This document shows positions 1,964 to 10,686 of a DNA stretch of 29,232 nucleotides, in pieces. Numbering within the stretch: the first letter of the stretch is position 1; every line of letters begins with the position of its first letter. The notes under the pieces were generated by a model that saw only the letters and a list, made by a program, of their open reading frames with translations, did not search any database and was not told where the DNA came from. Source of the DNA: a virus; the IMG/VR virus record IMGVR_UViG_3300042383_000727, positions 1 to 29,232 of that record; one strand, given 5' to 3'. The position numbers and the translations under genes were made by a program.

Positions 1964-3973
1964 GTGCAGAACGTGCAACCCATCACACCATCAGTACGTA
2001 CCGTGCAAGTCCCACAGCCTTTGCACGATGTGCAGGGCTGGCTGCTCTGGCGCTTCGAGCCCTTCATAGGCGAGGCGAAGCCGCGCAAGGTTCCGTACTG
2101 GGTCGACGGCACACGCCGCCACGGCGAGCAGGGCGGTCCCGTCGATCGCGCACGCCTGTCGACCTTCTTCGCGGCGCGTGAGGCTGCCGCACGCATGGGC
2201 TATGACGGCGTCGGCTTTGCGCCGCTGCCGGACTTCGGCTACACGTTCCTCGACTTCGACAACTGCGTCGACGTCGCCGGTAACATGCCCGCCGAGATCG
2301 GATCTATCGTCAGCCGCACGTACGCCGAGTACAGCCCGAGCGGCAAGGGCATACGCGCCGCGCTGAAGGGGGATCTGGGCAACCACAAGTCCCCGACGAC
2401 ACCGGACGACTATGGCTTTGAGACGTTCAGCTCGTCCGGCTTTGTCACGTTCACCGGCAACATCCTGCCCGCGTGCGACGTACTGGGCCATCAAGACACG
2501 ATTGCCGACGTTGACGACGTCACGCGTGCCCTGTGCGATCGACGCTTCGGCGCGCGCAGTCAGGCCGTGTTCGACCCCGAGGACTTCATGGCCGGACGCG
2601 AGCCGCGCCTCGGCCTCACCCCCACCAAGATGCAGGCCCTACTGGCCGTGCTCGACCCGAGCATGGGCCGAGAGCCGTGGCTGCGCATTGGCTTTGCCCT
2701 GCACCACGAGACCGAGGGCGACGACACTGGCTTCGAGCTCTGGGACGAGTGGTCGAGCGACGGCGACACGTACCCCGGCACGGAAGGCCTGCGCCACCAG
2801 TGGGACAGCTTCAAGGGCGGGACAGGCAAGCACCTGACCACCATGCGCTCCGTCATCAAGATGGCCAAGGAGGCGGGCTACCGCGAGCCGGACAATCGCG
2901 AGGCCGTGATTGCCAAGGCCGAGGTGATGATGGCCGAGCTGCCGAGCAAGAGCGTCGGGCGCTTCGGCCCTGTGCCGATATACGACCTGTCACTCGCCCC
3001 GCCAATGCAGTGGCTGATAAAGGGCGTCCTGCCGAGGGCCGAGCTGGGCGTGCTGTTCGGCGCGTCGGGATCTGGCAAGACGTTCGTGGCTCTGGATCTG
3101 GCGTTCTCGGTCGCACGCGGCAACGCGTGGCGCGACCGGCGCACGGCGCGTGGGCGTGTTGTGATCATCGCCGCAGAGGGCGCAGGCGGCATCGGCAAGC
3201 GCGGTGAGGCGTACGCGCGTTACCATGAATTCGACCTGCGCGGCATCGACCTGCACGTCATCCCTGCCGCGCCGAACTTTCTGGACAATGACGACATCTC
3301 CGAGGTGATGGCCGAAATAGGCAACATCGGCCCCGTCGACTTGGTCATCATCGACACCTTCGCGCAGGTTACGCCGGGTGCGAACGAGAACACGTCCGAG
3401 GACATCGGCCGCGCACTGGCGAACCTGAAGCTCCTGTACGGGGTGACGAACGCCATGAACCTCGTCGTCGCCCACGCCGGTAAGGATCTTAGCAAGGGCG
3501 TACGCGGCTGGTCGGGCCTGAAGGCCGCAGCCGACGTCCAGATCGAGGTGCTGCGTCACGAGAACGGCGATCGCGAGATTATCATTGAGAAGATGAAGGA
3601 CGGCGAGGACGGCATCCGTTGGGGCTTTAAGCTTGAAGTCGTCGAGGTCGGCATCGACTATGACGGCGACATCATCACGAGTTGCGTCGCCGTGCCGACC
3701 GAACTGCAGGCCAAGGTCGAGCAGGAGCGCATCGGACTGAAGCGTCGCGGACGTGTAGAAAATCACGTGTTGGAGATCATGACGCTGTTCGGCGAGCAAA
3801 GCATTGTCGGCGCAGTGGAGCTAATCGACCGCGCCGTGGCCGCATTGCAGCCACCAGAGGACGGCAAGCGCGACACGCGCAGGCAGTCTGTAACCCGCGC
3901 AATTCAGGCGCTCAGCAAGGAGAAGGACGGCCCGCTGCGTCTGGAAGGTGGAAAAATTATCTTCTACGAGTAA
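1964..3973 (+). CDS. Fused primase-polymerase and RepA-like replicative helicase
   Basis: This 669-residue protein combines three parts. Residues about 20-190 resemble the archaeo-eukaryotic primase/prim-pol fold: WLLWRFE, the catalytic-type acidic pair in FLDFDN (D97, D99), SPSGKGIR (124-131) and the strand FETFSSSGFVTFTGN (152-166). Residues about 222-300 resemble the PriCT-2 helical domain (WLRIGFALHHET then FELWDEWS). Residues about 345-560 are a RecA-fold RepA/AAA_25 ATPase, with Walker A GASGSGKT at 366-373, Walker B DLVIIDT at 459-465 and the GVRGWSGLKAAAD region at 512-524. The C-terminal 80 residues may be a winged helix. It would prime and unwind DNA at the fork together with the polymerase at 7729. 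The start is GTG at 1964, 2 nt after the previous stop, with no clear ribosome site, so coupled translation is likely. Confidence 0.87.
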   Translation: MQNVQPITPSVRTVQVPQPLHDVQGWLLWRFEPFIGEAKPRKVPYWVDGTRRHGEQGGPVDRARLSTFFAAREAAARMGYDGVGFAPLPDFGYTFLDFDNCVDVAGNMPAEIGSIVSRTYAEYSPSGKGIRAALKGDLGNHKSPTTPDDYGFETFSSSGFVTFTGNILPACDVLGHQDTIADVDDVTRALCDRRFGARSQAVFDPEDFMAGREPRLGLTPTKMQALLAVLDPSMGREPWLRIGFALHHETEGDDTGFELWDEWSSDGDTYPGTEGLRHQWDSFKGGTGKHLTTMRSVIKMAKEAGYREPDNREAVIAKAEVMMAELPSKSVGRFGPVPIYDLSLAPPMQWLIKGVLPRAELGVLFGASGSGKTFVALDLAFSVARGNAWRDRRTARGRVVIIAAEGAGGIGKRGEAYARYHEFDLRGIDLHVIPAAPNFLDNDDISEVMAEIGNIGPVDLVIIDTFAQVTPGANENTSEDIGRALANLKLLYGVTNAMNLVVAHAGKDLSKGVRGWSGLKAAADVQIEVLRHENGDREIIIEKMKDGEDGIRWGFKLEVVEVGIDYDGDIITSCVAVPTELQAKVEQERIGLKRRGRVENHVLEIMTLFGEQSIVGAVELIDRAVAALQPPEDGKRDTRRQSVTRAIQALSKEKDGPLRLEGGKIIFYE

Positions 3974-3990
3974 AATAATGCAAATAGGGG

Positions 3991-4048
3991 TTGCAATACG
4001 CGTTTGCATGCTTATATAGGGTTCTATCAGCAACAAGGAGTACCCAAT
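3991..4048 (+). promoter_or_regulatory. Promoter/leader module, copy 1
   Basis: This 58-bp segment before the gene at 4049 recurs before the gene at 10534 with identical total length. Shared elements, in order, are TTGCAA-N7-TTGCATG (containing the dyad TGCAA-N7-TTGCA), TAGGGT 5 nt later, ATCAGCAAC, and the ribosome site AAGGAGTAC. In this copy TTGCAA (3991-3996) could act as a -35 box with TATATA/ATATAG (4013-4019) as -10. A further 7-bp inverted repeat (ATGCAAA at 3978-3984, TTTGCAT at 4003-4009) surrounds the -35 region and may be an operator. The ATCAGCAAC-AGGAGTACCC part (4025-4045) is complementary to the hairpin loop at 7373-7394. Confidence 0.65.
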
Positions 4049-4357
4049 ATGAGCACCGCACTTAAACTTATTTCCAACAACCCAATCGACGCTCTCGGCG
4101 ACATCAAGGCCGAGATCGCCAACCTGACGGCCATTGCCAAGATCTACGAAGCGCAGATCAAGGACTTGGGCGTCGGCGGGCACGACGGCGACCTGTTCCG
4201 CGCTTCGGTAAGCGAAGTGGCCGAGCGTTCGTCGCTCTGCCCCAAGGCTGCCGAAGACAAGCTTCGCGAGTTGGGCGTCGACGGCCGCTGGTTCAGCAAG
4301 AACCAGAAGGTAGCCAAGGGCTACACCGTCCTCAAGATCGTAGCGAGGAAGGCATGA
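4049..4357 (+). CDS. Hypothetical protein driven by duplicated leader module
   Basis: This 102-residue protein is not recognised. The N-terminal half contains a helical region (DIKAEIANLTAIAKIYEAQIKDL cut into heptads). The C-terminal half (SEVAERSSLCPKAAEDKLRELG, then WFSKNQKVAKGY) could be a small winged-helix or HTH-like unit. The start is ATG 4049, placed by AAGGAG at 4035-4040; an upstream in-frame ATG at 4004 would begin inside the promoter module and is rejected. Having its own promoter, in the middle of an otherwise tightly overlapped operon, suggests it is needed in a different amount or at a different time. Its ribosome site may be a target of the antisense loop at 7373-7394. The stop overlaps the next start. 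Confidence 0.7.
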   Translation: MSTALKLISNNPIDALGDIKAEIANLTAIAKIYEAQIKDLGVGGHDGDLFRASVSEVAERSSLCPKAAEDKLRELGVDGRWFSKNQKVAKGYTVLKIVARKA

Positions 4358-4524
4358 TTTTGGCCGCAGAATACACGTCGGGTACTAACAAGTACCCGCC
4401 GACCCTCTACATCAACCGGATCGCGGACGGACGCCGTTCGAACGTGGCCGCATTCACCGTGTCAGGCAAGCGCGAGGCGCGCAAGCTTGCAAAGCAACAA
4501 GGAGCAGAACCGTGGAACTTTTAG
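4354..4524 (+). CDS. Small hypothetical protein
   Basis: A 56-residue basic protein starts at an ATGA junction with the previous gene and overlaps the next gene (GTG start at 4512) by 13 nt. The sequence reads as a short beta-rich unit (TLYINRIADGRRSNVAAFTVSG) followed by a basic helix (KREARKLAKQQG), a pattern seen in small phage proteins of unknown role. The AAGGAG that serves the following gene lies inside its 3' end, so the two are probably coupled. No family was assigned. Confidence 0.55.
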   Translation: MILAAEYTSGTNKYPPTLYINRIADGRRSNVAAFTVSGKREARKLAKQQGAEPWNF

Positions 4525-4805
4525 ACCGCAACCATTACCGAATGCGGGAGGACAGCAACCTCCTCGAAGAGGCGAAGTACAACCCGACCCCAGAGCTGGC
4601 GCTTGTGCTGGCCGAGCGTCTGGTGGAAGTGCAGGCCGAGTTTGACGAACAGCTCGAAGAGGCGAAGGAGGCCGCTGAAGATGCGCGGCTCGACATGAAC
4701 CAACTCGACGACAAGATCTATCTGCTACAGCAGGAGATCGAAAAGCTCGAACTGATGCTGGGCGAGCGCGACCGTATTATTGACGAACTGAGAAAAGGAA
4801 ACTGA
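4512..4805 (+). CDS. Coiled-coil protein
   Basis: This 97-residue protein is almost entirely alpha-helical and acidic. From about residue 28 onward it is a long uninterrupted coiled coil with regular leucines (LALVLAERLVEVQAEFDEQL, then DDKIYLLQQEIEKLELML). The GTG start at 4512 is supported by AAGGAG at 4499-4504 with 7-nt spacing, inside the preceding gene. It may be a scaffold or oligomerisation partner of a replication protein. A structural scaffolding protein is less likely because late genes are on the other strand. No homologous family was recognised. Confidence 0.65.
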   Translation: MELLDRNHYRMREDSNLLEEAKYNPTPELALVLAERLVEVQAEFDEQLEEAKEAAEDARLDMNQLDDKIYLLQQEIEKLELMLGERDRIIDELRKGN

Positions 4806-4808
4806 TAG

Positions 4809-5243
4809 ATGATAAAGATCGAAGTAACAGGCAACAGCATCCCCGAAGTGGCCGACAAGCTGTTGGCCATCGGCGCGAGCTTGCAGGGCATTAAAAGCAC
4901 CATGCCGCATGCTTGGTCCGACATTAAGCCGGATGCCGACATCATACTGGAGGTCGCCGAAGCCGCACCCGTGGACCCTACTTCTTCCACGAGTGCTATT
5001 GCTGCGGATGTTCTCTCCAGCCAGCCAACGACGAGGGAACCATCTACTACCCCTGCTCCTGCGCCATCGGCCTCTGAACTGTCGTTTGAAACGGACGTGA
5101 CGCCGGTCGTACTGGCCGTGGTGCAGACGAAGGGCAAGCCCGTCGTCGAGGAGATCCTGTCGCAGTTCGGCGTTGCCCGCGCATCGCAGCTCGATCCTGC
5201 GCGTTGGCCAGAGCTGGTCGCCGCGTTGAAAGATCAACTATGA
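4809..5243 (+). CDS. Hypothetical early protein with Pro/Ser/Thr linker
   Basis: This 144-residue protein has three visible parts. A small N-terminal unit (residues 1-55) has the form 'MIKIEVTGNSIPEVADKLLA'. A low-complexity P/S/T/A linker spans about residues 58-90. A compact C-terminal helical unit (about 97-144) contains VVEEILSQFGVARASQLDP and RWPELVAALKDQL. The C-terminal pattern 'ILxxFGVxxxxxLxPxxWxxLxxAL' is familiar from small phage proteins that sit just before nuclease/ssDNA-binding protein pairs, but I cannot name a function. A flexible linker between two small domains suggests an adaptor. The stop overlaps the next start at 5240. Confidence 0.65.
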   Translation: MIKIEVTGNSIPEVADKLLAIGASLQGIKSTMPHAWSDIKPDADIILEVAEAAPVDPTSSTSAIAADVLSSQPTTREPSTTPAPAPSASELSFETDVTPVVLAVVQTKGKPVVEEILSQFGVARASQLDPARWPELVAALKDQL

Positions 5244-6430
5244 GCCTGCACGCAAAGCTATCACCGTCGGGGGCCCATCGTTGGATGGCGTGCCCCGGCA
5301 GCGTCACCCTAGAGGCGGACTTCCCCGACACTAGCAGTGCGTACGCCCGCGAGGGCACCGCAGCGCACGAGCTGGCGGCTATGGTGCTTGAAGATCCGAG
5401 CAGCACGGCCAACCACTATGTCGGCAAGAAGATTGCATTCGACGATCACGGCGAAGAGGTAGTGTGGCCGATCACGAAAGAGATGGCCGACTACGTCGAC
5501 GACTACGTCAATTTCGTACGCGAGCGCGCCGTAGGCAAGATCCTGCACGTCGAGTGTAAGCTGTCCATTGGGCATATCACCGGCGAGGATGGTGCCACCG
5601 GCACCAGCGACGTCGTGATCATCGATCGCGAGCAGGAGGCCATCGAGGTCATCGACCTGAAGTACGGCATGGGCGTGCGCGTCGACGCCGAGAACAACGA
5701 ACAGATGCAGTTCTATGCCCTCGGCGCGCTGTACGAGTACGAGCTGATTTCGGACTTCTCGTGGGTGACAATGGTGATACACCAGCCGCGCCTCAATCAC
5801 GTCAGCGAGTGGAATATCCCTGTCGACCAACTGCGCAGGTTCGAAGACGAGGCCCGCCATGCGGCCGACAAGGTCCGCTGGGAAGAGCCGACGTTCAACC
5901 CCAGCGAGAAGCAGTGCCGCTTCTGTAAGGCCAAGGCGACGTGCCCTGCCCTGCGTGCGGAAGTCACCGAGATCGTCGGCGGCGCGGCTACGCTTGACGA
6001 ATTTACGCCGCAGACGGTCGACAGCCAGAGCGGCGACAACTACCTGCCAATGGCTATGTCGAAAGTCGGCATGGTCGAGGATTGGTGCAAGGCAGTGCGC
6101 GCCGAAGTTGAGCGAAGACTGCTTGCGGGCCAGACCGTTGACGGGTACAAGCTTGTCGAGGGGCGCAAGGGCAACCGGGCGTGGTCCGACGAGGGTGCCG
6201 TTGAGCAGCTCTTCAAGAGCTTCCGACTGCGTCAGGAAGAAATGTACGACTTCAAGCTGATCAGCGCCACAAAGGCCGAGAAGCTGTTGAAGGCAAATCC
6301 GAAGCGGTGGGCGAAGGCTGAGCAGCTTATCACCCGCAGCGACGGCAAACCATCAGTGGCACCCGCCACCGATAAGCGTCCAGCAATGGACGTAAAACCT
6401 GTCTTGGACGATTTCCAAGGCTTAATCTAA
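5240..6430 (+). CDS. DUF2800 family Cas4/RecB-like PD-(D/E)XK nuclease
   Basis: This 396-residue protein matches the DUF2800 family of phage nucleases. Visible active-site features are EGTAAHELA (H43 in the helical motif), GATGTSDVVI (D124) and the core EVIDLKYG (E136, D139, K141), followed by NEQMQFYALGAL, the conserved Q/Y motif of RecB/Cas4 nucleases. Four cysteines, C18 plus C226, C229 and C235 (CRFCKAKATC), fit the Cas4/AddB-type iron-sulphur cluster that clamps the nuclease fold. It probably resects or trims DNA ends during phage recombination, alongside the ssDNA-binding protein encoded next. I chose ATG 5240, which overlaps the previous stop; the in-frame extension to 5204 has no support. 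The whole fold appears intact. Confidence 0.88.
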   Translation: MSLHAKLSPSGAHRWMACPGSVTLEADFPDTSSAYAREGTAAHELAAMVLEDPSSTANHYVGKKIAFDDHGEEVVWPITKEMADYVDDYVNFVRERAVGKILHVECKLSIGHITGEDGATGTSDVVIIDREQEAIEVIDLKYGMGVRVDAENNEQMQFYALGALYEYELISDFSWVTMVIHQPRLNHVSEWNIPVDQLRRFEDEARHAADKVRWEEPTFNPSEKQCRFCKAKATCPALRAEVTEIVGGAATLDEFTPQTVDSQSGDNYLPMAMSKVGMVEDWCKAVRAEVERRLLAGQTVDGYKLVEGRKGNRAWSDEGAVEQLFKSFRLRQEEMYDFKLISATKAEKLLKANPKRWAKAEQLITRSDGKPSVAPATDKRPAMDVKPVLDDFQGLI

Positions 6431-6458
6431 CTGCAAACTGAAGATTGGATAATGTAAA

Positions 6459-7043
6459 ATGGCTACTCAAGTACTGCTCAAGAACGTAACGCTTGCCTTC
6501 CCCGCACTGGGCGAACCGCAGGCATTCGGCGAAGGCGAACCGGCATACGGTGCCAAGTTCCCCATCGAGCCCAACTCCGAAAATGCTAAGCTTATCGAAG
6601 ACGCCATCAAGGCCGAGGCGAAAGAGGCGTGGAAGGACAAGGCAGACAGCGTGCTGGCTATGCTCGTCGAAGACGGCAAAGTCGCGTACTCGCGCCGCGA
6701 GTATCGCTCGAAGAAGACCGGCGAGCCTTACGCTGGCTTCGAAAAGACGTTCTACCTCGGCACCCGTAACGCGTCGGTTCAGCCGTCCGTATACGACCAG
6801 TACGGCGACCCTGTCGTCGGCAAGGCCGAAATCACCCGCAAGGCGTTCAGCGGCGCGGTTGTGAATGCGTCTGTCGAAGTGTGGGCGCAGGACAACAAGT
6901 GGGGTCGGCGCATCAACTGCTCGCTGCGCGGCATCATGCTGACCGGCGAAGGCCAAAGCTTCGGTGGCGGATCGAGCCCAGCATCTGCTGATGAGTTCGC
7001 GTCCTTCGCTAAGGCCAAGGCAGACGCAGACGACGTCCTGTGA
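6459..7043 (+). CDS. DUF2815 single-stranded DNA-binding protein
   Basis: This 194-residue protein matches the DUF2815 family, phage ssDNA-binding proteins of OB-fold type, usually encoded beside DUF2800 and polymerase genes as here. Seen in sequence: an N-terminal strand MATQVLLKNVTLAFPALGEP, a central basic/aromatic part (YSRREYRSKKTGEPY, FEKTFYLGTRNASVQP), an AEVW-like strand (ASVEVWAQDNKWGRRINCSL) and a Gly/Ser-rich linker leading to an acidic tail ending DADDVL. An acidic C-terminus with a final hydrophobic residue is the usual protein-interaction tip of SSBs. It would coat unwound DNA at the fork and during recombination. The upstream 28 bases contain no strong ribosome site. The stop forms a GTGA overlap with gapR. 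Confidence 0.85.
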   Translation: MATQVLLKNVTLAFPALGEPQAFGEGEPAYGAKFPIEPNSENAKLIEDAIKAEAKEAWKDKADSVLAMLVEDGKVAYSRREYRSKKTGEPYAGFEKTFYLGTRNASVQPSVYDQYGDPVVGKAEITRKAFSGAVVNASVEVWAQDNKWGRRINCSLRGIMLTGEGQSFGGGSSPASADEFASFAKAKADADDVL

Positions 7044-7294
7044 GCATAATCGGCCACAACTCCAGCGAAGAGCAACTGCGCCTCTTAATCGAGCGTGTTG
7101 AGCGTCTGGAGGAAGAAGAAAAGGGCATTCGCGATGACAAGAAGGATGTCTACAGCGAAGGCAAGGCCCTCGGCTTCGACGTGAAGATCATGCGACAAAT
7201 CGTCCGCCTGCGGAAGATGACTAAGGATGATCGGGCGGAGATGGAGGCCATACTGGAGACCTACAAAAAGGCTCTTGGCATGGATCTGCTCTAA
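7040..7294 (+). CDS. gapR: GapR/DUF2312 nucleoid-associated protein homologue
   Basis: This 84-residue protein closely follows the GapR (DUF2312) pattern of alphaproteobacteria: IGHNS near the start, QLRLLIERVERLEEEEKGI, the invariant-looking VYSEGKALGFDVKIMRQI, VRLRKM, and a final ILETYKKALGM. Established knowledge: Caulobacter GapR is a small helical protein that tetramerises around overtwisted DNA ahead of moving polymerases and assists type II topoisomerases. A phage copy within the replication operon, next to SSB, could handle positive supercoils at phage forks, or compete with host GapR. The start is GTG 7040 (GTGA overlap); its length is close to the host family (about 80-90 residues). 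The last codons contain a -35 box for the downstream promoter. Confidence 0.88.
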   Translation: MSIIGHNSSEEQLRLLIERVERLEEEEKGIRDDKKDVYSEGKALGFDVKIMRQIVRLRKMTKDDRAEMEAILETYKKALGMDLL

Positions 7295-7303
7295 CTGTAT
7301 AAG
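7275..7303 (+). promoter_or_regulatory. Sigma70-like promoter at the end of gapR
   Basis: TTGGCA (7275-7280), a 17-bp spacer and TATAAG (7298-7303) form a near-consensus housekeeping promoter. The predicted start site is about 7308-7311, at the first bases of the 7307-7345 hairpin. It would produce a structured leader ahead of the HTH gene at 7433 and the polymerase. Confidence 0.6.
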
Positions 7304-7306
7304 ATT

Positions 7307-7345
7307 GGTGCGTCGGTCTCTATCCACCCTTAAGACCGACGCACC
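7307..7345 (+). repeat. 13-bp perfect inverted repeat (5' hairpin)
   Basis: GGTGCGTCGGTCT (7307-7319) is the exact reverse complement of 7333-7345, with a 13-nt loop (7320-7332). No U-run follows, so it is not a classical intrinsic terminator of the gapR operon. Because the promoter at 7275-7303 would start transcription at its left arm, it would lie at the very 5' end of the new RNA, a position that commonly stabilises transcripts. Its right arm shares two bases with the next inverted repeat. Confidence 0.7.
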
Positions 7346-7432
7346 TCTATTCTGGCGAGCCGCGCGTGGTGCGGGTGCTCCTGCGTTGCTGATACACGAT
7401 CGCGCGGCTCACCAGAATAGAGGAGTATCAGC
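7308..7432 (+). ncRNA. Candidate structured regulatory RNA / leader with antisense loop
   Basis: A transcript from the promoter at 7275-7303 would carry two stacked hairpins before the start codon at 7433. Loop bases 7373-7382 (GGGTGCTCCT) can pair with 4036-4045 and loop bases 7385-7394 (GTTGCTGATA) with 4025-4034, ten pairs each including one G-U. This covers the ribosome site of the gene at 4049. The same loop pairs with 10510-10519 and 10521-10528 before the gene at 10534, with one internal mismatch. Loop bases 7387-7395 also pair with 7425-7433, masking the leader's own start codon. Complementarity is seen in sequence; a regulatory role is inferred. No terminator is visible, so a free small RNA would need processing. 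Confidence 0.4.
7344..7423 (+). repeat. 23-bp inverted repeat enclosing an antisense-like loop
   Basis: The left arm 7344-7366 (CCTCTATTCTGG, then GAGCCGCGCG after one mismatched base) pairs with the right arm 7401-7423, 22 of 23 positions matching. The 34-nt loop spans 7367-7400. The right arm ends inside the ribosome site (AGAGGAG, 7419-7425) of the gene at 7433, so forming the hairpin in RNA would partly hide that site. The same dyad in DNA could instead be an operator, for example for the HTH protein encoded next. Confidence 0.75.
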
Positions 7433-7732
7433 ATGACTAAACTAACAATCCCACAGATCCGCGACTTGATCTCTGAACTGACCGATGAAGGCACAAAGTT
7501 GGCCCGTCGGCAGTATGAGATAAACTTGCGCATAAACGCGTTGATGCAGGAGACGTATCGCCGCAGCTACAGCCGTGCGCCTACAAAGAGCAAACGCATC
7601 ACGGCAGACGTGCGCGCGTCCGTTCGGGCTATGGCGGAAGCCAACCCCGACATGTCTCACCAAGAAATCGGAACCGCGCACAACATCAATCAGGGTCGCG
7701 TCAGCGAGATCTTGCACGGACATCGGGGATGA
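7433..7732 (+). CDS. Helix-turn-helix DNA-binding protein
   Basis: This 99-residue protein has an N-terminal coiled-coil-like helix (residues 5-45, LTIPQIRDLISEL then EGTKLARRQYEINLRINALM), a basic linker, and a C-terminal homeodomain-like HTH (about 60-95): ADVRASVRAMAEANPDMSHQEIG, then the recognition-helix pattern INQGRVSEILHG. The latter is frequent in regulators of alphaproteobacteria and their phages. It is probably a dimeric regulator. It sits behind an unusual leader with a promoter, two hairpins and a ribosome site partly inside a stem, so its expression is likely controlled, perhaps by its own binding to the 23-bp dyad. Its stop overlaps the polymerase start (ATGA at 7729), so both genes share the leader's control. 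Confidence 0.75.
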   Translation: MTKLTIPQIRDLISELTDEGTKLARRQYEINLRINALMQETYRRSYSRAPTKSKRITADVRASVRAMAEANPDMSHQEIGTAHNINQGRVSEILHGHRG

Positions 7733-9699
7733 CTACACTTTGGCTTGACCTTGAAACCTACAGCACCGTGCCGATTAAGCACGGCGCGCACCGCTACGCC
7801 GAAGAGGCCGAGGTGCTGCTTGTGGCGGTCGCAGTAGACGGCGAGCCCACGCAGGTGTGGGACTGTACGCAGGGCCACGCTGATTGGCGCAAGCGCCTGC
7901 AGGCGCTGATCAACGCAGCCGACACCGTCGTCATCCACAACAGTGCGTTCGATCGCACCGTGCTGCGCCACTGCGGCGTGCACGTGCCGTTGGAGAAGGT
8001 CGAAGACACGATGGTTCTGGCGCTGGCGCACAGCCTGCCTGCGTCGCTTGGCACGCTCTGCGACATCCTCGGCGTGCCCGTCGATAAAGCTAAAGACAAG
8101 TCGGGTAAAAAGCTGATACAGTTGTTTACCAAGCCGTGCCCTCGGAACTGGAAGATACGGCGCGCAACGTCGGAGACGCACGCAGATGAGTGGACCAATT
8201 TCGTCGAATACGCCCGCCTCGATGTGGACGCGATGCGAAACATACACGGACGCATACCAAGATGGAATTATACACATGGTGAGCGCCACCTTTGGCAACT
8301 CGACCAAGGAGTTAATGACCGTGGTATCGCCGTCGATGTTGACCTCGCGCAGGCAGCAATCCGAGCTTTTCGACGAGCTTCTGGATCTCTGGCCACTCGT
8401 GCGTCAAGCCTGACTGGCGGCGCGGTTCCCAACACAACGCAGCGCGAGAAGCTCCTGCAGTACCTGCGCACGTCACGCGGGCTTGAGCTGGAAGACCTGA
8501 CGAAGGCGACCGTCGAGACCCTGTTGAAGGGCGAACTGGACCCGCTGACGCGCGAGCTGCTTGAGATCCGACAACAGGCCTCGGCCACGTCGCCTGCGAA
8601 GTACGGCGCACTGATGGACGCGGCCTCGGCCGACGGTCGCTTGCGCGGGACGATGCAGTTCTGCGGCGCAGCTCGCACAGGCCGTGACGCGGGGCGTATC
8701 TTTCAGCCGCAGAACCTACCCCGATCGCCCGACTGGTTCGACGGCGACGTGCAGGAGCAGACGATTATTGCCTTTAAGGCGGACTGCGAAGACATCCTGT
8801 ACGACAACGTCAGCGAGCGCTGCGCATTCGCCGTACGTGGCTGTCTGGTCGCCGCCAAGGGCAAGAAGTTTGCCATCGCCGACCTGTCCAACATCGAGGG
8901 GCGCGTGCTTGCGTGGATGGCGGGCGAGGAGTGGAAGATCGAGGCCTTCAAGGCGTACGATCGCGGCGAGGGCGCGGACCTGTACAAGGTCACCGCCGGT
9001 CGCATCCTGAACAAAGATCCGTTCGACGTGACGAAGGCCGAGCGCCAGACGCAGGGCAAGGTGCCTGAGCTGGCAGGAGGCTATGGCGGCGGCCTCGGTG
9101 CCTACCGCAAGATGGGCGGCGCAGTGTTCGACGCAATGGACGACGAGACCATCATGGAGATCGTGCACGCGTGGCGTAAGGCGCACCCTGCGACGAAGCG
9201 CTTTTGGTACGACATCGAGGGCGCGGCGCGCGCCGCCGTGCGTGCAGATGGCGAGAGCTTCGGCGTGCGCGGCGACATGGTGCGCTTCGACCGCATGCAG
9301 GGGCCCGACGGCGTCTGGTACGTGCGCTGCCGCCTGCCGTCTGGCCGGTACCTGTGCTACCGCAGCATGCACATCAACGAGGACAGCAAGCTCGTGTACG
9401 AGGGCATGAACCAGTTCACGCGCAAGTGGGAGCTGCAGGAGACGTACTACGGCAAGCTGGTCGAGAACATCGTGCAGGCCGTGGCGCGCGACGTCTTCAT
9501 GACGGGCATGCGCCGCGCCGAGGAGAATGACTATCCCGTCGTCCTGCGCGTGCACGACGAGCTCGTGTGCGAGGTGCCCGACCACAAGGGCTATGACGCC
9601 GACACGTTGGCGGCAATGATGTCGACGAACCCGAGCTGGTCGATAGGCCTGCCTTTGTCTGCTGCGGGCTTCGAGGGCCTGCGCTACCGTAAGGAGTGA
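7729..9699 (+). CDS. polA: Family A DNA polymerase with 3'-5' exonuclease domain
   Basis: This 656-residue replicative polymerase has the single-subunit phage layout: proofreading exonuclease then polymerase, without the 5'-3' nuclease of bacterial Pol I. Exonuclease motifs are DLE (D7, E9), NSAFD (N71-D75) and YARLD (Y161, D165). Polymerase motifs are A (FAIADLSNIEGR, D385), B (RQTQGKVPELAGGYG, 439-453, with R439 and K444) and C (HDE, 609-611). A conserved thumb segment with GAARTGR lies near 313-319. All catalytic residues are present. It would copy DNA primed and unwound by the 1964-3973 protein. The start at ATG 7729 overlaps the upstream HTH gene by 4 nt. No intron, intein or frameshift was seen. 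Confidence 0.95.
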   Translation: MTTLWLDLETYSTVPIKHGAHRYAEEAEVLLVAVAVDGEPTQVWDCTQGHADWRKRLQALINAADTVVIHNSAFDRTVLRHCGVHVPLEKVEDTMVLALAHSLPASLGTLCDILGVPVDKAKDKSGKKLIQLFTKPCPRNWKIRRATSETHADEWTNFVEYARLDVDAMRNIHGRIPRWNYTHGERHLWQLDQGVNDRGIAVDVDLAQAAIRAFRRASGSLATRASSLTGGAVPNTTQREKLLQYLRTSRGLELEDLTKATVETLLKGELDPLTRELLEIRQQASATSPAKYGALMDAASADGRLRGTMQFCGAARTGRDAGRIFQPQNLPRSPDWFDGDVQEQTIIAFKADCEDILYDNVSERCAFAVRGCLVAAKGKKFAIADLSNIEGRVLAWMAGEEWKIEAFKAYDRGEGADLYKVTAGRILNKDPFDVTKAERQTQGKVPELAGGYGGGLGAYRKMGGAVFDAMDDETIMEIVHAWRKAHPATKRFWYDIEGAARAAVRADGESFGVRGDMVRFDRMQGPDGVWYVRCRLPSGRYLCYRSMHINEDSKLVYEGMNQFTRKWELQETYYGKLVENIVQAVARDVFMTGMRRAEENDYPVVLRVHDELVCEVPDHKGYDADTLAAMMSTNPSWSIGLPLSAAGFEGLRYRKE

Positions 9700-9703
9700 G
9701 ATT

Positions 9704-9973
9704 ATGACAACCGAATACAACATAACATTTCTGTATGGATTTATGGAGCCGGACGGTGGCGCATCGTTCAGTTTCAACGCTGACACGCCCCGCAAGCTGA
9801 TCTTGACCAAGGAGCGGTGCTTCGAGGCCGCCAATGCCGACACGGCGACTGTGCTGGTCAAGGACGGAAAGCCCAAGGCTAAGTGCGATGCCGATCGCGC
9901 ATATCTACACTACATCATCGACTGTTGGCTTGACGGCAAGCCAGTCGACCTGCAGCCGAGTGAATTGGGATAG
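9704..9973 (+). CDS. Small hypothetical protein
   Basis: This 89-residue protein lies 4 nt after the polymerase gene, whose last codons (AAGGAGTGAG) supply the ribosome site. It seems to be a mixed alpha/beta miniprotein: YNITFLYGFMEPDGGASFSF, then LTKERCFEAANADTATVLV, then a tryptophan-containing helix YLHYIIDCWLDG. I recognise no family or catalytic motif. Its position between polymerase and nuclease suggests an accessory role in replication. Confidence 0.65.
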   Translation: MTTEYNITFLYGFMEPDGGASFSFNADTPRKLILTKERCFEAANADTATVLVKDGKPKAKCDADRAYLHYIIDCWLDGKPVDLQPSELG

Positions 9974-9974
9974 C

Positions 9975-10196
9975 ATGTTCACGCAACTAAACCCGTCGAT
10001 ACCGATGGACACGGCCAAGGGCGCGGGTCTGGCGCTGGCCGTCATAGACTACGGACTGGAGCACAGCCTGCTCTGGGTCGTCGCGCTGGACGCCACCGGC
10101 GAGATCTGGTGCGTGCCAAATGCCGACGTGCGTGCGCGGAAGAACTGGTCCGCAGGGCGGCACTTGGATCTGCGCCCCGGAGAGTGGGTGGAGTGA
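9975..10196 (+). CDS. Small conserved phage protein
   Basis: A 73-residue protein starts 1 nt after the previous stop. The wording NPSIPMDTAKGAGLALAVID, then LLWVVALDATGEIWCVPNADVRARKN, is a pattern I associate with small conserved phage proteins located near replication genes. It looks like a compact beta-barrel fold (alternating strands, GEIWCVPN turn), similar in feel to small SH3-like domains. The function is unknown. The ATG at 9975 was chosen; an upstream in-frame extension to 9834 would overlap the preceding gene over most of its length and is a shadow. It ends in a GTGA overlap with the VRR-NUC gene. Confidence 0.7.
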   Translation: MFTQLNPSIPMDTAKGAGLALAVIDYGLEHSLLWVVALDATGEIWCVPNADVRARKNWSAGRHLDLRPGEWVE

Positions 10197-10486
10197 CGCC
10201 CGCAGGCCGCCTGCAGGACCATCTCAAGCACGTCGTGCAGAAGAGTGGGGGCCAGTACCGCAAGGTGCGTTGGGAGGGCCGCAATGGCTGCCCTGACTGC
10301 TTTGTGTGGTGGACGTGGCCGCACGTCGCCTTCATCGAGATCAAGGCCGACAAGGACCGCGTCAGCAAGGTGCAGGATCAGGAGATCCAGCGCATGCGGA
10401 ACTACGGCGTGCCAGTGTACATTGCGCGTTCGAACGAAGAAATCGACGAGATTGTAGAAAAAGTGCGAAAGGGTATTGCAAGCTGA
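10193..10486 (+). CDS. VRR-NUC domain nuclease
   Basis: This 97-residue single-domain protein fits the VRR-NUC branch of the PD-(D/E)XK superfamily. GCPDCFVWW gives the catalytic aspartate (D35), FIEIKADKD gives E49 and K51, and the following VQDQEIQRMRNYGVPVYIARS is the typical Q-containing helix and last strand. Stand-alone phage VRR-NUC proteins are generally viewed as structure-specific or Holliday-junction-type nucleases, usually next to an SNF2-like helicase, as here. I selected the GTG start at 10193 (GTGA overlap), giving the normal family length of about 95-100 residues. Its 3' end contains the first bases of the second copy of the promoter module. Confidence 0.88.
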   Translation: MTPAGRLQDHLKHVVQKSGGQYRKVRWEGRNGCPDCFVWWTWPHVAFIEIKADKDRVSKVQDQEIQRMRNYGVPVYIARSNEEIDEIVEKVRKGIAS

Positions 10487-10533
10487 TGTTGCATGTGCCA
10501 CTAGGGTGCATCAGCAACGAAGGAGTACACGAC
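10476..10533 (+). promoter_or_regulatory. Promoter/leader module, copy 2
   Basis: This second copy of the 58-bp module has TTGCAA (10476-10481), 7 nt, TTGCATG (10489-10495), then TAGGGT (10502-10507), ATCAGCAAC (10510-10518) and the ribosome site GAAGGAGTAC before ATG 10534. All distances from TTGCAA to TAGGGT, and from TTGCAA to the ATG, equal those of copy 1. The -10 region (CACTAG) is poorer than in copy 1, so the conserved dyad TGCAA-N7-TTGCA may be a binding site for an activator or repressor. The leader is complementary to the loop at 7375-7393. Confidence 0.6.
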
Positions 10534-10686
10534 ATGGCAAAGAAACGCACCAAGGCAGAACTTAAGGCAATGGCATACGCCATAGCCGACGAAGTCGAGA
10601 CCCGCGCCGAGGCTATCTGGCAACGCGCACCGAAGCTCACGTACGAGCAATGCCAGAGTTTGGCGCTACTGCAGATGCTCAAATGA
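10534..10686 (+). CDS. Small hypothetical protein driven by leader module copy 2
   Basis: A 50-residue helical protein, basic at its N-terminus (MAKKRTKAELKAMAYAIADE) and otherwise amphipathic (RAEAIWQRAPKLTYEQCQSL, then ALLQMLK). ATG 10534 follows AAGGAG at a good distance. The stop overlaps the helicase start (ATGA, 10683-10686), so the duplicated leader would also drive the helicase by coupling. No family was recognised. It may act mainly to load ribosomes on the helicase gene, or as a helicase cofactor. Confidence 0.65.
   Translation: MAKKRTKAELKAMAYAIADEVETRAEAIWQRAPKLTYEQCQSLALLQMLK

Follow-up and report, generated by a model that had tools for sequence, protein, structure and literature searches.

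Between the genes for a GapR-like protein and a DNA polymerase in an uncultured phage genome lies a long hairpin, the loop of which is complementary to the ribosome-binding leaders of two genes several kilobases away. We asked whether this complementarity reflects regulation by a trans-acting antisense RNA, as a preliminary description of the sequence had proposed, and if so, which genes such an RNA would control. The analysis started from a 29,232-nt stretch of DNA (IMG/VR record IMGVR_UViG_3300042383_000727; hereafter, the window) and was extended to related contigs.

Genomic context of the hairpin locus

The window represents part of the genome of an uncultured tailed phage, with early genes on the + strand and tail and other virion genes on the - strand. 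The early genes, all on the + strand as are the features discussed below, include those for a primase/helicase (1964-3973), a DUF2800 nuclease-like protein, an Enc34-like ssDNA-binding protein, a GapR-like DNA-binding protein (7040-7294; Pfam PF10073, 109 bits), a small HTH-like protein (7433-7732), a family A DNA polymerase (7729-9699; Pfam PF00476), and an SNF2-type helicase (from 10683). The GapR-like gene is the constant upstream neighbor of the hairpin locus, and the polymerase gene is its constant downstream neighbor. The small HTH-like protein has a weak match to a transcriptional repressor family (phrog_23243), and we found no relative of it in named phages or GTDB genomes; its gene follows the hairpin in some phages and is absent in others (contigs L001, L004, L008, and L011). 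Among named phages, Caulobacter phages have the closest polymerases (57% identity), and GapR proteins are a family of the alphaproteobacteria; the host of this phage clade is therefore probably an alphaproteobacterium.

Structure and conservation of the predicted hairpin RNA

Upstream of the hairpin, we identified a promoter-like element at 7275-7303 (TTGGCA at 7275-7280, a 17-nt spacer, and TATAAG at 7298-7303), the -35-like box of which lies inside the 3' end of the GapR-like gene. Based on this element, transcription of the RNA is expected to start near 7307-7311. A CTATAG/GTATAAG-like box occurs at a fixed distance 5' of the first hairpin in almost all relatives, and its spacing to TTGG is 17 nt in most of them. 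A generic sigma-70 scan did not detect the promoter of the RNA, so the element is defined solely by comparison.

The predicted RNA has two hairpins and a fold energy of approximately -72 to -74 kcal/mol (z -8.8). Hairpin 1 (7307-7343) is at the predicted 5' end. Hairpin 2 (7344-7423) has arms at 7344-7366 and 7401-7423, which form 22 bp with one conserved mismatch, and its apical loop carries the antisense segment (7373-7394), consisting of an anti-Shine-Dalgarno (anti-SD) part, GGGTGCTCCT (7373-7382), and a core, GTTGCTGATA (7385-7394).

Relatives collected from IMG/VR via polymerase and small-ORF searches contain the same hairpin. In total, 63 distinct versions of the RNA were present in IMG/VR, and strict DNA patterns on the hairpin identified 61 class A and 24 class B stretches (classes refer to the loop sequence, as described below). 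In hairpin 1, pairing is kept and the sequence is free to vary, with two-sided changes in 10 of 11 pairs (alignment A5). In hairpin 2, 96.7% of cells are paired and 15 of 21 pairs have two-sided changes; none of 500 shuffles was comparable, and neither shuffles nor column slides came near this pairing. The loop tolerates insertions and deletions, which argues against a coding role. On every contig that includes the upstream gene, the RNA is directly 3' of the GapR-like gene. The gene 3' of the RNA varies among relatives, being the small HTH ORF, another ORF, or the polymerase gene itself; because this downstream gene changes while the RNA stays, conservation of the RNA does not depend on which gene comes next.

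Two local details of the structure are also recorded here. In most relatives, the single mismatch in hairpin 2 (C7356 x A7411) is present as either C x A or U x U, and it is a possible protein or RNase site. The bases CC at 7344-7345 have alternative partners, either GG at 7307-7308 in hairpin 1 or the SD bases at 7422-7423 in hairpin 2, a possible small local switch for the downstream gene.

An Rfam 15 cmscan of the window identified no family at the gathering score, and a permissive Rfam scan of 7250-7450 returned only sub-threshold matches (generic long-hairpin miRNA models and ar7), with C4 absent. A DNA search of cultured phages with the hairpin found no match.

Pairing of the loop with two leaders in the window

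All coordinates and pair counts in the preliminary description were exact when rechecked. The anti-SD part of the loop pairs with AGGAGTACCC (4036-4045), with one G-U pair, and the core pairs with TATCAGCAAC (4025-4034); the resulting 20 pairs across 4025-4045 are interrupted by a 1x2 internal loop (A4035 versus G7383-C7384) and lie over the SD of the gene at 4049. The second leader (10510-10528) pairs with the loop at 18 of its 19 positions, in runs of 10 and then 8 that are separated by a single mismatch, the run of 8 including one G-U. If each mRNA starts at the core, the total pairing energy after opening costs is -22.9 kcal/mol for the first leader and -20.5 kcal/mol for the second. Upstream of the first leader, a promoter-like block (TTGCAA ... 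TATATA; 3991-4018), similar to blocks before 86 distinct class A leaders, would put the mRNA 5' end close to the core. The gene behind the first leader (4049-4357) encodes 102 aa, is without a Pfam or PHROG match, and has no assigned function; the gene behind the second (10534-10686) encodes 50 aa, also of unassigned function.

The expectation that shuffled loops would not give equal energies was borne out, as among 3000 dinucleotide shuffles, one reached the energy of the leader of gene 4049, two reached that of gene 10534, and none reached both. With opening costs included, these leaders rank 1st and 3rd, respectively, among the 108 SD-bearing starts in the window. The start ranked 2nd, at 4512 (GCAACAAGGAG), was rejected as a third target: the match is in coding DNA and is unchanged in class B phages (L148), and we treated it as a coding coincidence. 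By raw duplex energy across the whole GC-rich window, the two leaders rank only 3rd and 7th, in a list that is headed by the loop's own complementary strand. Since raw duplex energy is not unique in the window, the decisive evidence is comparative.

Leaders complementary to the loop in related phages

Based on sequence complementarity, each phage has approximately 2-8 leaders that match its loop, located at the 5' leader and SD region of genes on the RNA's strand. Across 14 contigs (29-60 kb each), 47 of 64 exact 9-mers of a phage's own core sit 10-40 nt before an ATG, a zone comprising ~19% of positions; permuted 9-mers averaged 0.5, and none of 1000 scored as high. We counted 48 SD-bearing leaders with the phage's own core on the RNA's strand, four with the reversed core, and none on the opposite strand. 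In most relatives, leaders occur at about -3.3 kb and at +2.6 to +3.5 kb from the RNA.

The genes behind these leaders fall into 36 clusters, mostly unrelated to each other, mostly 50-250 aa in length, and nearly all without a family match. Gene 4049, the ORF behind the primase gene, is the most constant target, with homologs behind such a leader in 10 of the 14 contigs (cluster 0). Gene 10534 is swapped for unrelated genes in relatives while the leader stays. The target set is thus a changing group of mostly small, unrelated early ORFs that share a leader, and the replication genes themselves are not targets. The preliminary description had suggested a possible coordinator of the replication operon; this needs amending with respect to the targets, and the RNA itself lies in the predicted 5' UTR of the polymerase transcript.

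A conserved block 5' of the leaders (TTGCAA, then TTGCAT, then TAGGGTGC) is common to many unrelated genes, and in the window it is found at 3991-4018 and 10476-10507. It looks like a family of early promoters or operators of the clade, and this resemblance to a promoter would set the mRNA start at the core. One target in phage G006 (L186/L187), located behind a leader ~10.4 kb 5' of the RNA, codes for a zinc-ribbon-like protein of 74 aa that matches the restriction alleviation protein Lar below the Pfam cut-off; the regulon may include anti-defense genes.

Covariation between loops and leaders

Covariation of loop and leaders in relatives, which the preliminary description had put forward as a test, is present and strong. 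In class A, the loop GTTGCTGAT goes with leaders containing ATCAGCAAC. In class B, the loop GTTGTTGGT goes with ACCAACAAC, so that two base pairs are swapped in loop and leader alike, simultaneously in as many as four leaders. The class C loop, GCTTGCTTGAT, goes with the leader ATCAAGCAAGC, with one base inserted on both sides, and the class F loop (L132), GTTGCTGAC, goes with GTCAGCAAC. When leaders were identified by a finder independent of the loop sequence, phages with A loops had ATCAGCAAC in 94 of 114 leaders and ACCAACAAC in one, whereas those with B loops had ACCAACAAC in 16 of 17 leaders and ATCAGCAAC in none; ATCAAGCAA was found in 3/3 leaders with C loops, and GTCAGCAAC in 2/2 with the F loop. 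In a held-out set of contigs, fetched later by DNA pattern on the hairpin, new leaders fit the loop class in 20 of 20 cases (A, 9/9; B, 11/11).

Orthologous leaders gave the same result, as the leader behind the primase gene fits its own loop class across relatives. Mean duplex energies for class A versions of this leader were -30.5 kcal/mol with A loops versus -19.9 kcal/mol with B loops, and those for class B versions were -23.7 kcal/mol with B loops versus -14.7 kcal/mol with A loops; crossing loops and leaders between the classes therefore costs ~9-11 kcal/mol. Mismatches do occur in some leaders (L100, L003, and the post-primase leader of the C-type L153).

Inside class A, tuning extends beyond the core: the SD-side segments favor the loop of their own phage by a mean of 2.45 kcal/mol, and 14 of 17 do so (3/17 do not). 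None of 5000 permutations was as good, although this is not a probability, as the permutations ignore relatedness. For instance, the window has GGGTGCTCCT with AGGAGTACCC and L096 has GTTTGCTCCT with AGGAGCAAAC.

Mapping the loop classes onto a maximum-likelihood tree of the polymerases requires approximately six changes: B appears in two places, C forms one clade, and F, D, and G are single branches. The A-type L146 and L152, whose leaders are also A-type, are sisters of the main B clade. Phylogenetic independence is limited by the small number of loop-class changes, though each involves several leaders, and clearly matching trans leaders were found for only four of the changes (B, the A-type sisters L146/L152, C, and F). 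Overall, pairing between loop and leaders is strongly supported by comparison.

Proposed mechanism and alternative explanations

Considering all of these results, we estimate a probability of roughly 80% that positions 7307-7432 form a conserved antisense RNA within a 5' UTR, which base-pairs with the leaders of early mRNAs and prevents ribosomes from entering. The RNA would form the 5' end of the polymerase transcript, with hairpin 1 capping this end and hairpin 2 presenting a loop antisense to the leaders of several separately promoted early mRNAs. The loop core would bind the first bases of a target mRNA and the anti-SD part would bind the SD, giving a duplex of ~18-20 bp with a small internal loop that would block 30S binding. 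With the RNA at the head of the polymerase transcript, transcription of the replication operon would turn down the early gene set as the replication genes come on. A scan of the + strand from 3900 to 10600 found no terminator-like site, including behind hairpin 2; a discrete small RNA would therefore need processing, or else the 5' UTR would act while attached to the mRNA. The trans-acting antisense RNA of the preliminary description is supported by the covariation and shuffle tests; as for regulation itself, we infer that the RNA is made, that it acts in trans, either after release as a discrete small species or as part of the 5' UTR, that it represses rather than activates, and that it serves timing.

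We also lean toward a broader reading, in which the RNA is a master switch that silences a portable early-gene regulon defined only by an antisense-matching leader. Newly inserted genes would be captured by the leader, and co-rewritten loops and leaders would constitute a lineage-private code that relatives with another code do not read.

The same pairing might instead occur over a long range within one polycistronic transcript, or it might activate by opening or stabilizing the mRNAs. The leaders and the RNA are on one strand, mostly within ~15 kb, and a longer 4049 leader would fold onto its SD (opening cost 10.8 versus 2.8 kcal/mol). However, this fold-back requires bases upstream of the likely mRNA start, the leaders have promoter-like blocks of their own, and the duplex covers the SD; we consider this explanation unlikely.

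A shared DNA operator is somewhat harder to sustain. A phage DNA-binding protein could bind ATCAGCAAC in both leaders and loop, with shifts in its specificity explaining the co-change; since operators, too, would be expected to change together, the class changes by themselves do not discriminate between this explanation and RNA pairing. The core does lie directly behind the promoter-like block in leaders, and in some phages the hairpin is followed by a gene for an HTH-like protein, yet this gene is missing from many phages that keep the RNA and the leaders. The core is not palindromic. Furthermore, the copy in the loop is always inverted, sits at the apex of an RNA stem that covaries, and is ~75 nt behind its own promoter-like box. 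The match also extends into the SD with variable spacing, and the fact that this SD side is phage-specific too argues against an operator, which we regard as quite improbable.

The remaining structural question concerns the gene directly behind the RNA. Its SD (GAGGAG, 7420-7425) is partly within the base of hairpin 2, and its own leader, GTATCAGCA (7425-7433; 7420-7433 including the SD), is complementary to the 3' side of the loop. In many class A phages, the stretch between this SD and the start codon likewise matches the loop and keeps pace when the loop changes; pairs of own leader and loop include GTATCAGCA with TGCTGATAC, GTTATCAGC with GCTGATAAC, GGATCAGCA with TGCTGATCC, and GAAGGATCAGC with GCTGATCCTTC. 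The longest match with a phage's own leader exceeded that with swapped leaders, and none of 2000 swaps was as good. This match is absent in class B phages (except L133) and in class C phages. An intramolecular pseudoknot with the own leader was rejected as sterically unlikely given the intact 22-bp stem; since 2-3 nt cannot span that stem, the own leader would probably be bound by the loop of another copy. It is probably an additional, optional target, through which the RNA would regulate its own transcript too, and in many lineages the RNA would thus also act on the gene directly behind it.

These observations bear on the explanation that the hairpin controls translation of the gene behind it in cis only, with the distant matches as by-products of a common leader style. 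The position of the SD and the covariation of the own leader with the 3' side of the loop would suit control in cis, and the two hairpins that Caulobacter phage RW has at this place are not accompanied by antisense leaders. Nevertheless, class B (except L133) and class C phages keep the trans matches without the own-leader match, the order of the loop (anti-SD, then anti-core) suits distant leaders and not the own leader, and a pseudoknot would form only if the lower stem opened. We therefore find a cis-only role very improbable. Finally, the loop might match by chance, given the GC-rich genome and the purine-rich leaders, and raw duplex energies as low do occur elsewhere in the window, but shuffles, permuted 9-mers, class matching, and held-out contigs all make it a negligible explanation.

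Comparison with cultured phages and known antisense systems

Hairpins at or near the corresponding position in cultured Caulobacter phages were considered as members of the family and rejected. Phage RW (L197, 24324-24419) has two hairpins between its GapR-like gene and polymerase gene, the second with an SD in its base; it has no antisense loop and no leader repeats. Phage BL94 (L278, 7771-7877) and its kin SR18, Jess A, and RapA have a long hairpin, CCTTTGG-C-GAGCTGCTGGG...CCCAGCAGCTC-A-CCAAAGG, again with an SD in its base and with the GG-C-GAG/CTC-A-CC mismatch motif of hairpin 2; a second copy is found in BL94 and SR18. Here the leader match is to the stem arm and reflects a second copy of the hairpin, and no antisense loop was found. 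The BL94-type stem scored 21.4 bits (E 5e-4) against model R1, and it could be a cultured cousin of the hairpin 2 stem. Hairpins without the antisense loop, in RW and other Caulobacter phages, may represent an ancestral cis form.

The co-change of loop and leaders suggests that a set of early viral genes is governed by an RNA switch that has not been described before. A search of the open literature, which most subscription papers and preprints fall outside, found no description of this RNA, and none of the entries in a 2025 table of phage small RNAs has a whole set of phage leaders for its targets; known phage antisense RNAs target one gene or operon, or host RNAs. If the proposed mechanism is true, a phage can run early-gene shut-off through base pairing alone. 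The family is also a rare case in which evolutionary comparison, over dozens of phages, allows the pairing of RNAs from separate transcripts to be recognized. The leader tag finds early genes of unassigned function, and the distinct codes A, B, C, and F permit clean swap experiments.

Among known systems, the C4 RNA of P1 and P7 has loops complementary to the ribosome-binding region of a phage mRNA and blocks its translation (PMC12197685), and the loop of the window RNA is likewise complementary to such regions. However, C4 targets one mRNA (ant, with icd) and has a role in immunity (PMC12197685), whereas the family described here matches many separately promoted, unrelated genes, comprising dozens of small ORFs, and is without a match to the C4 Rfam model. 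The P4 CI RNA derives from an untranslated leader transcript and pairs with two sites, upstream and downstream (PMC4825925); in the window, one antisense segment similarly has complementary sites in both directions. The P4 RNA acts by ending transcription prematurely, at seqA and seqC in the same region (PMC4825925), whereas the sites here are ribosome-binding leaders of scattered genes, with no terminator evident. P22 sar and lambda OOP are phage antisense RNAs that lower translation or stability of a phage mRNA (PMC12197685); unlike the window RNA, each has one target gene and no shared leader family. With its covarying complementarity to several mRNA initiation regions, the window RNA fits, in this respect, the general class of trans-acting base-pairing sRNAs.

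In the breadth of its predicted targets, the RNA would resemble RegA of T4, a protein that is encoded in the replication gene cluster and competes with ribosomes at the initiation regions of ~30 mRNAs (PMC3014915). For the RNA, binding sites are predicted from sequence in ~2-8 leaders per phage; whereas RegA is a protein, the corresponding task here would be performed by an RNA through the specificity of base pairing.
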